From the NCBI GenBank assembly GCA_015069135.1, contig SVJE01000004.1, forward strand, positions 62,001-126,000: a stretch of DNA of 64,000 bases, written 5' to 3'. The stretch comes from Oscillospiraceae bacterium (GTDB taxonomy: Bacteria; Bacillota; Clostridia; UBA1212; SIG427). Below the pieces are notes generated by a model, which worked only from the letters and a program-made list of their open reading frames with translations, had not been told where the DNA came from and did no database searches. Below are positions 2,089-64,000 of the stretch, piece by piece (within the stretch, counting starts at the first letter, position 1; each line of letters opens with the position of its first letter). The translations under genes and the position numbers were made by a program.

Positions 2089-2227
2089 GGGGTCTGCCCC
2101 CCGTCTTATTATGTAAAATGGGAAATAACATAAGTTCTACACTATGCGACATATTTTTACATGAATATTACGATTAGTTGTTGAAAAATATATTTTTTTG
2201 GGAAATAATACCTGCCCCCTGTCTTAG
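2089..2227. repeat. Composite palindrome-bounded element, copy 1 (~139 bp)
   Basis: Occupies most of the 387-bp gap between hpf and the acyl-CoA synthetase gene. It starts with half of the GGGGTC palindrome (ggggtctgccccccgtctt), then a gggaaataac box, about 85 AT-rich bases containing gcgacata and acgatta, then a second gggaaataa box joined to cctgccccctgtctta. The same order is seen, inverted, at 28430-28566 and, same strand, at 39574-39714, with lengths 137 and 141. No ORF or RNA gene recognised inside. Confidence 0.7.
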
Positions 2228-2294: not shown

Positions 2295-2317
2295 CAGGAC
2301 AGGGGTCAGACCCCCAA
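2295..2317. repeat. GGGGTC palindrome copy
   Basis: Core aggggtcagaccccc with one degenerate arm (aggaca on the left, caaaat on the right). Lies just before the terminator of the acyl-CoA synthetase gene. Confidence 0.7.
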
Positions 2318-6926: not shown

Positions 6927-8279
6927 ATGAACACTCCCATTTGCGATTTTGTAAAAAAATATTCTGAGAGCAATAAAATCCGACTACATATGCCCGGCCA
7001 TAAAGGTCAGGGCTTTTTGGGTATTGAGCATCTGGACATAACAGAGATTGATGGTGCAGATGTACTTTACAAAGCAGAAGGGATAATACAAGAAAGCCAG
7101 GATAATGCAAGTTCTCTTTTCGGAAGTGGCCGTACATTTTATAGTACAGAGGGTTCGTCCCTGGCAATAAGGGCTATGCTTTTTTTGGTAAAAAAATTTT
7201 CTCAGGACGGGGGTCTGCCCCCTGTCTTGGTGGCGTGTCGAAATGCCCACAAAACTTTTGTTACTGCTGCTGCAATTCTCGACATTGATGTAAAATGGAT
7301 ATGGCCTGAAAATGAAGAAAATATTCTTTCCTGTAAAATATCTCCATCATATCTTGATGAATTTCTTTCCAACCAAAAAGAAAAACCTACAGCGGTATAT
7401 GTTACAAGCCCTGATTATCTGGGCAACATGTCTGATATTTCAGGTTTAGCTCAGGTATGCCACAAGCATGGAATTTTGCTTTTAGTAGATAATGCTCATG
7501 GTGCTTATCTTAAATTTTTGCCGGAGTCAATGCACCCAATAGATTTAGGGGCTGATATGTGCTGTGATTCAGCTCATAAAACACTGCCTGTGTTGACCGG
7601 TGGTGCATATCTTCATGTTTCAAAAGATGCACCTGTGATGTTCAGACAGCAGGGAGAAAATGCTCTTTCCTTATTCGCATCCACTAGTCCGTCCTATTTA
7701 ATTTTACAGTCGTTGGATTATGCTAATAAATATCTGACTGAAGGTTACAGAGAAAAGGTAGCTGATTTTATTGGTAAAATGAACTCTTTAAGAGAACACT
7801 TGGTTAGCTTAAAGTATACCTTGGTTGGAACAGAACCTTTGAAAATTACTATAGATGCCAGAAGTATAGGCTATACCGGTACAGAAATGGCAGAAATCTT
7901 ACAAAAAAAAGACATAGTGTGCGAATTTTCCGATCCTGATTACCTGGTACTTATGCTGACACCGGAAATTTCAAGAGAAAAAATAGACTACATTAAATCG
8001 ACATTTTCTGAGGTTTTTTTAAAAAAAACCAAGACGGGGGTCAGACCCCCGTCTTGGGCAAAGGAATACCCGTTGCATAAAATCGACGCGGGTAAAGCGA
8101 TTTTCATGTCTAGTGAGGAATTGCCTGTTGAACAGTGTCTGGGTAGGGTATTGGCTTCTCCAACAGTAAGTTGCCCCCCTGCAATTCCAATTGTGGTTTG
8201 CGGAGAGACAATTAATGAATCTGCTATTGAATTATTTAAATATTATGGAATAAAAAAATGTAATGTAATTAAAGAATAG
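6927..8279 (+). CDS. Orn/Lys/Arg decarboxylase-family PLP enzyme carrying two in-frame palindromic elements
   Basis: 450 residues. Fold-type I PLP domain with HMPGHKG at 21-27, STEGSSLA (phosphate region), VDNAHGAY and SAHKTLPVLTGG with the PLP lysine K218; C-terminal domain from about 375. Such short Firmicutes members (YaaO-like) may decarboxylate arginine, lysine or ornithine; the substrate cannot be read. Two copies of the GGGGTC palindrome lie inside, in frame: residues 93-101 (SQDGGLPPV region) and 368-377 (KTGVRPPSW region), both at expected loop or domain-junction positions, so the protein may tolerate them. Co-transcribed with scfB. The last 11 bp overlap the 3' end of ilvN on the other strand. 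Confidence 0.85.
   Translation: MNTPICDFVKKYSESNKIRLHMPGHKGQGFLGIEHLDITEIDGADVLYKAEGIIQESQDNASSLFGSGRTFYSTEGSSLAIRAMLFLVKKFSQDGGLPPVLVACRNAHKTFVTAAAILDIDVKWIWPENEENILSCKISPSYLDEFLSNQKEKPTAVYVTSPDYLGNMSDISGLAQVCHKHGILLLVDNAHGAYLKFLPESMHPIDLGADMCCDSAHKTLPVLTGGAYLHVSKDAPVMFRQQGENALSLFASTSPSYLILQSLDYANKYLTEGYREKVADFIGKMNSLREHLVSLKYTLVGTEPLKITIDARSIGYTGTEMAEILQKKDIVCEFSDPDYLVLMLTPEISREKIDYIKSTFSEVFLKKTKTGVRPPSWAKEYPLHKIDAGKAIFMSSEELPVEQCLGRVLASPTVSCPPAIPIVVCGETINESAIELFKYYGIKKCNVIKE
7204..7230. repeat. GGGGTC palindrome inside decarboxylase gene, copy A
   Basis: aggacgggggtctgccccctgtcttgg: degenerate outer arms, intact core. Read as Q-D-G-G-L-P-P-V-L in frame, with no frameshift. Confidence 0.8.
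8029..8057. repeat. GGGGTC palindrome inside decarboxylase gene, copy B
   Basis: A perfect 12-bp inverted repeat (ccaagacggggg / cccccgtcttgg) around tcaga. Read in frame as K-T-G-V-R-P-P-S-W between catalytic and C-terminal domains. Confidence 0.88.
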
Positions 8280-21641: not shown

Positions 21642-21658
21642 GGATGAGAGTCTGACCA

Positions 21659-21833
21659 TACAGTGATTTTGCTTAAATCGGTAAAATCACTACACGAATT
21701 TGCTAAAACGTACAGTGATTACGTAAAAATTGTGCTAAACACTACACAAAACACACAGTGATTTGATCGGTTGTTACCAAAACACTGTATCTTCATGTAG
21801 TGATTTTATTAAAATCCACTAATACACTGTATG
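21659..21833. repeat. Array of four inverted-repeat units built on TACAGTGATT
   Basis: The 289-bp gap between asnB and trmK carries about eight copies of (T)ACAGTGATT or TGTAGTGATT alternating in orientation: forward near 21659, 21711, 21755 and 21797, reverse near 21685, 21738, 21781 and 21823. Successive forward/reverse pairs make hairpins, e.g. agtgatttt / aaaatcact, perfect over 9 bp. No T-runs mark them as terminators and no ORF is present. Confidence 0.75.
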
Positions 21834-21930
21834 GTAGCGTGGTTGCACCCGGTGTTTTAGTTGCAAAAATCTATGGATTTATATAAAATACTGGGTGTGT
21901 GATATTTTACCGAAACTCCGGAGTTTTTGA

Positions 21931-24348: not shown

Positions 24349-24372
24349 CAGCCAGGGGTCAGAGCCCTGTGC
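24349..24372. repeat. GGGGTC palindrome copy, cagcc-arm variant
   Basis: cagccaggggtcagagccctgtgc, degenerate. Forms the left boundary of a 188-bp stretch that ends in another copy at 24510-24536; between them is AT-rich DNA with a gacataatatgtc dyad and no ORF. Confidence 0.65.
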
Positions 24373-24509
24373 ATAACTTTTATTTAGATTGGACTTCTCA
24401 AACTGTCAAAAAGTGACATAATATGTCAAAAATTGCTCTAAAAAAGTTTATTATTTTCAATAAAGTGTTATGTTTGTCGAAAATGTTTAGTGTTTTATTT
24501 TATTATTAA

Positions 24510-24536
24510 ACAGCCAGGGGTCAGACCCCCGGCTGT
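24510..24536 (-). terminator. GGGGTC palindrome acting as terminator of ddh
   Basis: acagccaggggtcagacccccggctgt: 11-bp arms around tcaga-like centre, followed on the minus strand by tttaataataaaat. Lies 6 bp past the ddh stop. A repeat-family member that probably serves as terminator. Confidence 0.7.
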
Positions 24537-25607: not shown

Positions 25608-25656
25608 CAGGACGGGGGTCTGCCCCCTGTCTTGGGACCAAGACAGGGGGCAGACC
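25608..25656. repeat. Two GGGGTC elements head to head, forming a 19-bp perfect inverted repeat
   Basis: First copy caggacgggggtctgccccctgtcttgg (25608-25635). Its right part ggtctgccccctgtcttgg (25617-25635) is repeated inverted at 25638-25656 with only 2 nt between. Lies between the divergent ddh start and the rnpB promoter. Confidence 0.9.
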
Positions 25657-25669
25657 ATATGTTTTGCAT

Positions 25670-25703: not shown

Positions 25704-26045
25704 CTGCAAGTAGGCTAAACGGTCGCTGGCACAAAGTCGAAAGGCTGTGCTTGAGGAAAGTCCGGGCTTCACAAGGCAGGGTGCCGGGTAATACCCGGTG
25801 GAGGCGACTCCCAGGAAAGTGCAACAGAAAATTACCGCAGGTTTTACCTGTAAGGATGAAAAGGCGAGGTAAGAGCTCACCGGGCCTATGGTAACATAGG
25901 TCGCTGTGTAAACCCCACCTGAAGCAACACCGTAGTGGAACAAATGGTTTGCCCGACCGTTCCCCTGGTGGCTAGAGTGGTGCAGTAATGTACCGCCCAG
26001 ATAGATGACCGTTCCCGACAGAACCCGGCTTACAGGCTTGCTTGT
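25704..26045 (+). ncRNA. rnpB: RNase P RNA, class A
   Basis: Catalytic RNA that removes 5' leaders from pre-tRNA. Hallmarks: GAGGAAAGTCCGGGC at 25753-25767 (CR-I), the GAAACCGCCACGG-like centre in degenerate form, ACAGAACCCGGCTTACAG at 26018-26035 (CR-V), and P1 closing arms gcaag (25706) and cttgc (26037-26041). The internal loops agree with the class A (E. coli-like) architecture usual in Clostridia, not the Bacillus class B form. Ends are estimated to within about 5 nt. Confidence 0.95.
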
Positions 26046-26060
26046 AAAATAAAAATAAGG

Positions 26061-26106: not shown

Positions 26107-26133
26107 GAAGACTAGGGTTTGACCCCCGTCCGG
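26107..26133. repeat. Degenerate GGGGTC palindrome
   Basis: aagactagggtttgacccccgtccgg; left arm mutated, right arm intact. Confidence 0.6.
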
Positions 26134-28067: not shown

Positions 28068-28104
28068 AATACAAGACGGGGGTCTGCCCCCCGTCTTGTA
28101 TTTT
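28066..28104. repeat. Extended GGGGTC palindrome at the end of ndoA
   Basis: aaaatacaagacggggg ... ccccgtcttgtatttt, arms of about 16 bp around tctgc; the T-rich right flank makes it a workable terminator on the plus strand and, by symmetry, on the minus strand for the next gene. Confidence 0.88.
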
Positions 28105-28429: not shown

Positions 28430-28566
28430 AAGACAGGGGGCAGGTCTTATTTCCCGAAAAACACAAAGAATCGTCACAAATATGCTGATTTTATGTCGTC
28501 TTTTACAGATATGTATCGAAAAAAGTTATTTCCCGTTTTTGCGCCACAGGACGGGGGGCAAACCCC
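28430..28566. repeat. Composite palindrome-bounded element, copy 2, inverted (~137 bp)
   Basis: Fills much of the 325-bp gap between the small Cys protein and the SASP gene. Read on the minus strand it gives ggggtttgccccccgtcc, gggaaataac, ~85 bp with cgacata and gacgatt, gggaaataagacctgccccctgtctt: the same order and spacing as the 2089 and 39574 copies. Nothing coding was seen within. Confidence 0.72.
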
Positions 28567-29272: not shown

Positions 29273-30025
29273 ATGAAAAATGTGGAAAATACGACAAAAA
29301 AAGATAATAAAATTTGCATAATTAATAGTAAAGCTCCAAAACCAATAATAAAAAATTTAGAATTATTGGGCTATGAGGTGCTACTTCTTCCCCCATTAAA
29401 AGGATTAGCGTCAAAAGAGAGTAGGCACGTTGATATGCAGCTGTGCCGTATTTCAGAACAGGAAATAGTATTTGCGCCCGGTGTAGATGGTGAAATACTA
29501 ACTGCAATTGAGAAAAGAAATTTTACCGTTATAGAAGGCAATACTTTATTAAAACGGAATTATCCTGAAAATATTGCATACAATGTGCTTGTAACGGACA
29601 CAATGTTTCTTCATAATACAAAATTTACGGATAGCCAAATTTTAAAAAAATTGCAAGACGGGGGTCTGACCCCCGTCTTGACAAAACAGGGGTATTCAGC
29701 TTGTAGTGCAATTGCTCTTTCGACAAAAAACAACAGCACAATTATATTAACGGGGGACTGCGGGATTTTTAAAATATGTAGGGAAAAAGGTATAGAAACA
29801 ATATTTTGCGAAGGTGTTGAAAATATCAGACTTGCAGGATACAACCACGGTTTTGTGGGTGGATGCTGCGGCAAAGACGGTAAAGTATTGTATACTTGTG
29901 GAAGCTTTGAAAAAACATTTTACAACGGAAGAAAAATTAGAGATAGCCTTAAAAAACAAGGAATTAATGTTGTTAATCTTTGGGGAGGAAAGCTAAGGGA
30001 TATAGGTGGCATGTTGATTTTGTAA
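29273..30025 (+). CDS. DUF6873-type protein (guanidino-group modifying enzyme fold) with in-frame palindrome
   Basis: 250 residues. Resembles clostridial DUF6873 proteins, which are assigned a GME (amidinotransferase/ADI-like) fold: N-terminal IINSKAPKPIIKNLELLGYEV, HVDM at about 44, KQGYSACS, TGDCGI, and GGCCGKDG near 200 with a possible catalytic Cys. No reaction is established. Residues 128-136 (Q-D-G-G-L-T-P-V-L) are encoded by a perfect copy of the GGGGTC palindrome, directly before the conserved KQGYSACS segment, without breaking the frame. Start has no strong RBS visible. Tentative family call. Confidence 0.72.
   Translation: MKNVENTTKKDNKICIINSKAPKPIIKNLELLGYEVLLLPPLKGLASKESRHVDMQLCRISEQEIVFAPGVDGEILTAIEKRNFTVIEGNTLLKRNYPENIAYNVLVTDTMFLHNTKFTDSQILKKLQDGGLTPVLTKQGYSACSAIALSTKNNSTIILTGDCGIFKICREKGIETIFCEGVENIRLAGYNHGFVGGCCGKDGKVLYTCGSFEKTFYNGRKIRDSLKKQGINVVNLWGGKLRDIGGMLIL
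29654..29680. repeat. GGGGTC palindrome inside the DUF6873-type gene
   Basis: Perfect 11-bp arms caagacggggg / cccccgtcttg around tctga, in frame. Confidence 0.9.
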
Positions 30026-38272: not shown

Positions 38273-38689
38273 ATGGAACATAATATTGCTGGCGGACCGG
38301 TTTTGGTATGGATTACAAATCCGGAAGCTTGTCAGAGAATAGTAGCTGCAGGTAAAAGACTGGCAGAAGAGTTAAATGCGGAGTTGTTTATTGTAAGCAT
38401 TCAGAATAAAGCATATGGCACATGGCTAAAACAGGCTGAAGATCTGGAACTTTTGCATAGAGCAGCCAGAGGTGTAGGTGCGGAATTGACAGTGGTTTAT
38501 TCAGACAATGCATTTAAAGCAGCAGCGGAAGTTGTTGAAAATACAAATCCACAGGCTATGATTACCGGTCTTCCCGGAACCCAGGGACGAAGTGCTTTTC
38601 TGGATTACATATTTAATATTAATGATAATGTACAGTCTTACCTGGTTGATGCTTCAGGAAATGTGGTCCGGGCAGACATACTGGGATAA
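38273..38689 (+). CDS. Universal stress / KdpD-like nucleotide-binding domain protein
   Basis: 138 residues from the ATG at 38273. Single Rossmann-like USP fold similar to the KdpD sensor USP domain: VLVWITNPEACQRIVAAGKRLAEELNAELFIVSIQN, then AAEVVENTNPQAMITGLPGTQGRSAFLDYI. Likely a cytosolic ligand- or nucleotide-binding regulator. No kinase domain attached. Followed by the PdaB-like gene after 46 nt. Confidence 0.78.
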   Translation: MEHNIAGGPVLVWITNPEACQRIVAAGKRLAEELNAELFIVSIQNKAYGTWLKQAEDLELLHRAARGVGAELTVVYSDNAFKAAAEVVENTNPQAMITGLPGTQGRSAFLDYIFNINDNVQSYLVDASGNVVRADILG

Positions 38690-38735
38690 GTGGAAGCATA
38701 GTATTTATCACAAACTGCAAAAAGTGGTGAATATT

Positions 38736-39518
38736 ATGAGATTTAGAACAATTAAAATAAAGCCGTATACAATCCCTGTTTTGCTTGTAGCTTTAGCAGG
38801 GATTATTTTATTGGCTGTTTTTACCACCGGTAAAACTATAGGTGATGCGTTGGTTTCGGCTTCTGCGCGGAAACTACCTGTGTATGCTGTAGACAACGAG
38901 GGGAGTGGTGACATTGCCCTTACTATAAACTGTGCATGGGGTGCTGACGATATCCCTGATATATTAAAAATTCTTGAAAAATACAATATAAAATGTACTT
39001 TTTTTGTGTTGGGGGTCTGGGTGGAGAAAAATCCTGAGGCATTGAAAGCTATTGTTGACCAGGGGCATGAAGTCGGAAATCATTCATATTCCCACAGATT
39101 ACCATCACAAAGTGACGAAAAGCAAATAGAAGATGAAATAAAAAAGTGTAGCGAAGTGGTTTATTCCAGGACGGGGGTCAATCCCCAGGTCTATCGTGCA
39201 CCTTCGGGGGATTACAATAATTCGACAATAGAGATTGCCGAAAAATACGGAATGACAGCAGTGCAATGGTCTGTAGATAGTATTGACTGGTTAAAGGACA
39301 GAAGTGCAGCTGAAATTATAAACAGAGTAACCGGAAAGACGGTTTCAGGTAGCATTATATTGTTTCACAATGATACAAACCATACTGTTGAAGTGTTGCC
39401 GGAGATAATTGAACATCTGCAAAATGAGAACTATACCTTCGTTAAAGTCAGTGAATTATTGTTGCCCGGTTCTACATACATCGACAATCAGGGAGTGCAA
39501 CATATAAAAAAACAATGA
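38736..39518 (+). CDS. PdaB-like polysaccharide deacetylase, membrane anchored, catalytic Asp position is Asn
   Basis: 260 residues from the ATG at 38736. N-terminal membrane anchor (about 11-30) and a NodB domain: ALTINCAWGADD (61-72), metal-binding HSYSH (H116, H120), YRAPSGDYN, and C-terminal GSIILFHND. The PdaB/clostridial version normally reads TFD(A/I)xWG; here the base aspartate is N65, while the metal Asp (D71/D72) remains. Related proteins act on spore cortex or cell-wall glycans. The change may lower or alter activity. A GACGGGGGTCaaTCCCC stretch at 39168-39184 encodes the native TGVxP segment. Confidence 0.83.
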   Translation: MRFRTIKIKPYTIPVLLVALAGIILLAVFTTGKTIGDALVSASARKLPVYAVDNEGSGDIALTINCAWGADDIPDILKILEKYNIKCTFFVLGVWVEKNPEALKAIVDQGHEVGNHSYSHRLPSQSDEKQIEDEIKKCSEVVYSRTGVNPQVYRAPSGDYNNSTIEIAEKYGMTAVQWSVDSIDWLKDRSAAEIINRVTGKTVSGSIILFHNDTNHTVEVLPEIIEHLQNENYTFVKVSELLLPGSTYIDNQGVQHIKKQ

Positions 39519-39573: not shown

Positions 39574-39714
39574 GGGGATTGACCCCCGTCTTGCAAACTT
39601 TGTGTTTGTTATAGCAGTTGTTTGACAAAATATGACATATTTAAATAGGTTGTAACGGTTTTTCGCAGGGAAATAAGGTATAACTTGGGAAATAAAGCCT
39701 GCCCCCTGTCTTGA
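39574..39714. repeat. Composite palindrome-bounded element, copy 3 (~141 bp)
   Basis: In the 341-bp gap after the PdaB-like gene: ggggattgacccccgtcttg, ~90 bp with gacatatttaa and gtaacg, two gggaaataa boxes (39668 and 39687) and cctgccccctgtcttg. The right end continues into an imperfect 17-bp inverted repeat (39698-39737, gtcaagaaagagggcag). No ORF recognised. Confidence 0.72.
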
Positions 39715-63603: not shown

Positions 63604-63740
63604 ATCAAATCTCCTTGTCTTTCATTAATAATGCTGTGGCTAGTATAACACATTACTGTAAAATAGTGTAGAGGAAATGTTTGAAAAATTCTGCGTGAAG
63701 TGCTTTTAAAAAGAACTGCAGGTGAAAATATTGGTGAAGT

Positions 63741-64000
63741 CGCCGACGAAAGCAGGGAAATGAAGGTGGTGTCGTTGAGTTCGGTCGAAAACTCGCCGAC
63801 AAAAGCAGAAAATGAGAGAGATGTCGTGGAGTTTGGACGGAAAAGTCGCCGACGAAAGCAGAAAATGGGAGAGATGTCGTGGAGTTTGGACGGAAAAGTC
63901 GCCGACAAAAGCAGAAAAAGGGAGATTTGTGGTTGAGTTTGACTAAAACTCGCCGACGAAAGCAGGAAATGAGAGAGATGTCGTGGAGTTTGGACGGAAA
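63741..64000. repeat. 53-bp tandem repeat array (at least five units, runs off the window)
   Basis: CGCCGAC cores start at 63741, 63794, 63847, 63900 and 63951: spacings 53, 53, 53 and 51. The shared unit is cgccgacRaaagcagRaaat, gagagagatgtcgtggagt, ttggacggaaaagt. Units 2 and 3 are nearly identical. The period is not a multiple of three and the unit shows frame stops, so it is not protein coding. The 137 bp between the GH3 start and the array hold a TGTTATACT extended -10 for the GH3 gene (63649-63642) and nothing else recognised. Confidence 0.93.

Follow-up and report, generated by a model that had tools for sequence, protein, structure and literature searches.

A compact family of composite palindromic repeats in an Oscillospiraceae genome, likely of the REP/BIME kind

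Composite repeats in the window

The window analysed here is a stretch of 64,000 nucleotides (C7:62001-126000) from a host genome of 1.9 Mb in 11 contigs, and it carries three copies of a composite repeat. With lengths measured from the left GGGG up to the right GTCTT, copy c1 occupies 2089..2225 on the forward strand (137 bp, ATTT upstream), c2 28430..28566 on the reverse strand (137 bp, ATAT upstream) and c3 39574..39712 on the forward strand (139 bp, ATAT upstream). An earlier note on this DNA had described these three copies of about 140 bp as one unit of constant order and length, and the description holds beyond the window. Three further copies, c4 at C4:176447-176583 (137 bp), c5 at C11:30463-30599 (137 bp) and c6 at C7:45569-45696 (128 bp), make six copies of 128-139 bp on three contigs, and four of the six are exactly 137 bp long. 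The same note had argued that the arrangement is no chance pairing of small palindromes; the right-end pattern indeed matches the genome six times, against no match for a reversed control pattern. None of the six composites lies within an open reading frame (ORF) of at least 90 aa.

A profile of the type suggested in the note, built here from the six copies, recovers all of them at 89-107 bits (c1 107, c2 99 and c3 89 bits). It adds a seventh, diverged but full-length copy of ~163 bp near C4:162660 (30 bits, E 1.7e-7). The profile search covered 23 genome stretches amounting to 414 kb, and the remaining genome was searched with a 139-bp query and short patterns only. The sequence at 24349..24536 (strand unassigned) had been taken for a 188-bp variant of the unit. 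It is a relative, made of two related palindromes with the outer stem CAGCC/GGCTG and another interior, but we do not count it as a fourth copy because the profile match is partial and covers just 24431-24529 (E 4e-4).

The window holds other features besides the repeat. A class A RNase P RNA gene lies at 25707-26048, between modules at 25615-25660 and 26114-26132. A 53-bp tandem repeat (CGCCGACGAAAGCAG) fills 63737-64000 and reaches the window edge, and a 44-nt inverted repeat is found at 21655-21835, with 93 nt between arms that are 73% complementary.

Anatomy of the composite

The composite is modular, and its two ends carry the same module in the same orientation. At the left end ATAT is followed directly by GGGG and then by the module yTGmCCCCyGTC, which in the window copies gives the pattern GGGG[TA][CT]TG[AC]CCCCCGTC[TC]T. 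The right end (pattern GGGAAATAAnnCCTGCCCCCTGTCTT) starts with GGGAAATAnnn and continues with yCTGmCCCCyGTCTT. In c1, for example, the left-end module with its GGGG/CCCC hairpin lies at 2089..2107, the left gggaaataa box at 2120..2128 and the right end, box plus module, at 2200..2225, all on the forward strand; the corresponding right end of c2 lies at 28430..28455 on the reverse strand. The ends of the 137-bp unit are therefore direct repeats, and terminal inverted repeats are absent from it. ATAT stands directly 5' of the left end in five of the six copies. Target-site duplications, which the note had proposed to look for, are found in none of the seven copies, when a duplication is required to have at least 3 identical bases and to lie no more than 2 nt from the edges.

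The note had placed a gggaaataa box at both ends. This is true of the right box, whereas the left GGGAAATA (gggaaataa) box is present in only 4/6 copies, and c3 has both boxes at its right end (39668 and 39687, 19 bp apart). Paired boxes lie inside the AT-rich spacer, TTTCGAyA towards the left end and TGTyGAAA towards the right. The left module is followed at 28 nt by TTTCGATA in c2 and c4 and at 29 nt by TTTCTACA in c6, whereas in c1, c5 and c6 TGTyGAAA precedes the right module by 25 nt.

A shared interior had also been claimed, and this can be upheld for some copies only. We compared the interiors of all 15 pairs among the six copies, with the GGGAAATA box masked and z taken against shuffles. 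Strong homology that extends through the middle is seen for c2-c4 (z 10.9, 0/300 shuffles) and c1-c6 (z 5.2, 0/300 shuffles), and weaker similarity (z 2.6-3.6) for c5-c6, c3-c6 and c3-c4, while the remaining 10/15 pairs are not outstanding. The note had named interiors unrelated beyond AT-richness, together with variable spacing, as the result that would speak against a single unit. Some interiors are indeed unrelated beyond composition and others are homologous, and the spacing is constant save in the 128-bp and ~163-bp copies.

The upstream flanks are unrelated, with z never above 2.5 in the 15 pairs. Downstream flanks are similar in three of the 15 pairs (c1-c4, c1-c6 and c3-c5; z 4.7-5.3). 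We read this similarity as due to a further inverted module that follows the right end in c1 (2295..2315, reverse strand) and in c3-c6, degenerate in c3. Folded as single-stranded DNA, five of the six copies are no better than shuffles (c6 reaches z -2.8). The RNA consensus fold consists of just two short end hairpins, the right one weak, without a covarying pair.

A module family in the genome

The module CTGmCCCCyGTC occurs 73 times in the 211 kb that we scanned on C2, C4, C7 and C11, mostly as lone or paired hairpins, so that single palindromes, inverted pairs and composites all exist. Because the modules of the unit also occur singly and in pairs, the BIME-like label proposed in the note fits. 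The scanned sequence is 86-92% ORF, and 47 of the 73 modules lie between ORFs (about 8% of the sequence), the other 26 within ORFs of 90 aa or longer. In the window, solo palindromes of the family include one at 28072..28098 and one at 29654..29680 (strands unassigned), the latter in ORF 29273-30025 (DUF6873) with TTTCGACA 40 nt off. At its 3' end the module reads CGTC in 29/73 and TGTC in 44/73 cases. GTAG or GTGG is found within 16 nt of either hairpin foot in just 4/73 modules.

A second box accompanies many modules. An exact TTTCGACA, or its complement, lies no more than 60 nt from 17/73 modules, whereas 1.3% of random places have one so near; allowing one mismatch raises these figures to 44/73 and 12.8%. 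The commonest spacing between module and box is 27 nt, as in the left end of the composite. Since the box is spaced from the modules in this way, the composite can be described as two half-units around a spacer.

The family is regionally clustered. The genome has 40 exact palindromes GGGGNCWGNCCCC, every one of them on C4 or C7 (together 29.8% of the genome) and grouped in blocks, and C11 holds one composite and C2 two modules. We consider a binning artefact unlikely, as tetranucleotide profiles give no sign of C4 and C7 being foreign; their correlation between repeat-rich and repeat-poor stretches is 0.57-0.93, lowest with the C5 stretch, and a C3 stretch (GC 0.117) was excluded for presumed masked bases. 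Some words differ in frequency between such stretches. TGTCGAAA occurs 23 times in module-rich stretches of C7, C4 and C11, mostly at most 60 nt from a module, and twice in repeat-poor ones, and ATTTTACC/GGTAAAAT reaches about double the density in repeat-rich stretches (C7:1-126000 and C4 stretches), with 187 vs 94 occurrences in 152 and 160 kb.

Occurrence in other genomes

With up to one mismatch, the right-end pattern is found in 1/97 genomes of the relatives set, which is the host genome itself. Viral contigs contain no match to this pattern, and plasmids and phages gave no match to one composite copy used as query in each. An exact right-end match among genome contigs (L114) lies in a GC-rich stretch from another phylum, and we judged it to be chance coding sequence. 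For GGGGTCAGACCCC there was no match in the literature searched. The palindromes themselves are more widespread: among the order's 31 genomes, exact palindromes are found in 11, and six have at least 20. The outer stem varies among genomes with complementarity kept (AAGAC/GTCTT, GTGAC/GTCAC, GAAAC/GTTTC). In G020, which belongs to the same order and another family, the profile finds near-full-length matches of 125, 133 and 129 bp (E 8e-6, 1e-4 and 1e-3), and the outer stem is another one. At the place of AAGACCTGCCCCCTGTCTT in c2 and c4, one G020 element closes with GTGACCTGCCCCCTGTCAC. Loci of genus g9 (L100-L103, L109-L111) are dense in hairpins with a GGGG..CAG core, at about 1.4 per kb.

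These observations bear on the question of what the mobile piece is. One possibility, which we regard as unlikely but worth keeping in mind, is that the half-unit moves, a module hairpin with a TTTCGACA box 27 nt off, and that composites form wherever two such pieces come together, repeatedly and in BIME style. The numerical excess of modules over composites (73 vs 7), the TTTCGACA boxes and their preferred distance, and the many interior pairs that are not outstanding can all be understood in this way. Independent meetings would, however, vary in spacing, whereas five of the six copies measure exactly 137 bp (four copies) or 139 bp (one). Homology extends across the central part of the interior in c2-c4 and c1-c6, and the full-length matches of 125-133 bp in G020 also argue for an integral unit.

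Modules inside genes

Modules are also read in frame within ordinary genes. The decarboxylase-like gene at 6927-8279 contains a solo module (7203..7229) and a solo palindrome (8030..8056), both in frame and with strand unassigned, and a module-like sequence (39167..39187, reverse strand) falls on a conserved motif in the gene for a polysaccharide deacetylase (38592-39518). Further in-frame sites outside the window are found at C7:33192-37780 (L022), C2:53671 (L107) and C4:168509 (L019). We compared 11 of the 26 intragenic modules with related proteins: two in the decarboxylase-like protein, six in an NdvB-like enzyme of 2432 aa, and those in the deacetylase, a germination protease and a P-type ATPase. 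The NdvB-like comparison used 3/5 fetched relatives, the other two being split into two frames.

Insertion of 27 bp is expected to add nine residues, and such a gain is seen at 0/11 compared sites. Between conserved anchors, this genome has 16 residues against 14-17 in the relatives, 47 against 41-51, 10 against 11, 14 against 44, 55 against 58-68, 20 against 48, 40 against 40 and 16 against 16. The deacetylase alignment runs across the module without a gap, of two solved relatives of the germination protease one is 2 residues longer at the module and the other about 1 shorter, and the P-type ATPase is 9 residues shorter than the best solved relative. From these alignments, to relatives of about 25-55% identity and with two sites adjacent to large deletions and two within variable linkers, the intragenic modules look like replacements and not like insertions. 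Selection for intact proteins could conceal true insertions.

It is conceivable, if rather improbable, that modules and perhaps composites overwrite resident sequence and add none, a single-stranded hairpin being copied into DNA that matches it in part (templated conversion). The missing nine-residue gain would then be explained, and several sites equal the length of relatives exactly. The idea has a precedent, as Higgins et al. are said to have proposed in 1988 that REP sequences spread by gene conversion. In a specific form that we find just as doubtful, the half-unit of module and TTTCGACA would rewrite resident DNA through annealing and copying of the hairpin, and the 137-bp composite would be the full-length donor form. 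The distance of the relatives weakens the case, as do the sites beside deletions and in linkers among only 11 of 26 modules compared, and selection would remove disruptive insertions from view. Moreover, the supporting sites are all intragenic, whereas the composite is intergenic. Rickettsia palindromic elements (RPE) are likewise palindromes found in frame in ordinary genes, according to the available text of a published survey (PMC3733652). There RPE and other REPs are described as in-frame insertions, whereas here all 11 sites are without the nine-residue gain.

Candidate mobilisers

The host genome encodes one RAYT-like protein (268 aa) and two IS200-like Y1 proteins, and the repeat is absent from the 7-kb stretch around each of these three Y1 genes. 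Across the 31 genomes of the order, a longer Y1_Tnp gene is found in 7/10 genomes with at least two palindromes against 2/21 without (p 0.0013), an association confounded by five of the seven co-occurring genomes belonging to one genus. With the cut set at 20 palindromes the numbers are 4/6 and 5/25 (p 0.043). A Y1_Tnp match is absent in the two palindrome-richest genomes, G023 (192 palindromes; 88% complete) and G029 (88; 70% complete). In the genus with the five co-occurring genomes the motif abounds throughout, which is why its number around the RAYTs (28 in 17.9 kb) shows no enrichment over the remainder of the same stretches (75 in 52.6 kb, p 0.37). As this locus control failed, we can therefore only infer that a RAYT is the mobiliser.

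Two other candidate associations were rejected. A special association of GGGGACAG hairpins with the flanks of RAYT genes in genus g9 was dropped after the locus control (p 0.37), and the occurrences of GGGAAATA and GTCGAAA near RAYTs (7 and 14) were picked post hoc and included two doubled loci (L097 = L165, L098 = L162). In G020 the RAYT locus (L096, L104) has the gene flanked by a different hairpin, GAGCCACAGCGTCAGACGCTGTGGCTC.

Discussion

In this work we find that the composite belongs to a real and compact repeat family, which most likely represents passive mobile DNA akin to REP/BIME elements. The six copies with their sharp edges, near-constant length and unrelated upstream flanks count for a mobile unit. 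The explanation that we tentatively favour, at a little less than an even chance, is that of a non-autonomous, non-coding REP/BIME-like repeat moved by a single-strand route of the Y1/RAYT type. Outer stems that vary among genomes but keep their complementarity, the Y1 genes of the host and the co-occurrence of palindromes with longer Y1_Tnp genes speak for it. Weak single-strand folding in 5/6 copies, unflanked Y1 genes, the two palindrome-richest genomes without a Y1_Tnp match, the failed locus control, the rarity of GTAG/GTGG and the replacement-like modules in genes count against it.

Two further explanations fare less well. The composite would very probably not be a classical MITE, which is a DDE-type insertion sequence with an internal deletion that depends on the DDE transposase for its movement. 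The unit is of a size that suits such an origin, its interior is AT-rich and non-coding, its copies are scattered, and the further inverted module after c3, c5 and c6 could be read as part of a longer inverted pair; nevertheless the strict MITE label suggested in the note does not fit, because the ends are direct and two defining features, terminal inverted repeats in the 137-bp unit and target-site duplication (0/7), are absent. A structured RNA or transcription signal, that is a cis element or terminator recurring for a regulatory reason, would suit the hairpin ends and the position outside ORFs, but it is scarcely probable given the unrelated neighbouring genes in the window, the poor folding without covariation, and Rfam matches in the window limited to RNase P.

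The family resembles several known systems and is identical to none of those compared. With REP, BIME and REPIN elements it shares short palindromic modules in single, inverted-paired and composite form, a mostly intergenic location and the presence of a RAYT-like gene. BIMEs are mosaics in which palindromic units follow one another at spaced intervals, and the solo, paired and composite arrangements match this. REPs of the GTAG type carry a GTAG guide near the hairpin foot, whereas only 4/73 modules do so here, and, in contrast to REP/RAYT systems, an extra TTTCGACA box is found at 27 nt and the RAYT is unflanked by the repeat. A REPIN consists of two inverted REPs in one hairpin, whereas the composite modules are direct, though inverted pairs exist elsewhere in the genome.

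PATE-like elements are non-autonomous derivatives of IS200/IS605 type. Ends in direct orientation, no target-site duplication and a fixed 5' flank are the pattern expected of IS200/IS605-type single-strand transposition. The composite shares direct hairpin ends, the lack of target-site duplication and fixed bases by the left end with these derivatives, but here no parent IS with such ends is found among the Y1 genes, all three of which are unflanked, and the left hairpin begins at the very edge. It looks as if the composite works as an IS200/IS605-type passenger, its membership in that family being putative.

CGTC-tagged palindromes likewise end in CGTC or TGTC (73/73 modules here), show no dedicated transposase and have copies in genes, as far as the available text of Di Nocera et al. 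2013 (PMC3733652) describes them. In that text the tag is unpaired and stems almost invariably begin with complementary A-T; here CGTC pairs within the stem of perfect palindromes, and the stems do not share this beginning.

How might the composite move? In our preferred reading, the two directly oriented modules would fold into short hairpins around the AT-rich spacer with its paired inner boxes. A Y1/HUH tyrosine enzyme such as RAYT, acting in trans, might then recognise the folded ends on one strand and cut beside GTCTT, and the unit would be joined next to an ATAT-like sequence whose target is not duplicated. Guide and cleavage rules for IS200/IS605-type transposition are described in the available part of PMC8266576.

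The spread of palindromes without a dedicated transposase is an open question in the survey mentioned above (PMC3733652), and the available text of this survey contains no mention of Firmicutes or Clostridi-. The genome studied here encodes GerA, GerAC and germination protease, and judging by these genes the host is probably a spore-forming Firmicute-like bacterium. The most interesting loose end is the presence of modules in frame within genes without the expected gain in length. With fixed-length composites, a spaced second box, regional clustering and in-frame copies without gain, this family is one in which insertion and overwriting can be tested against each other.
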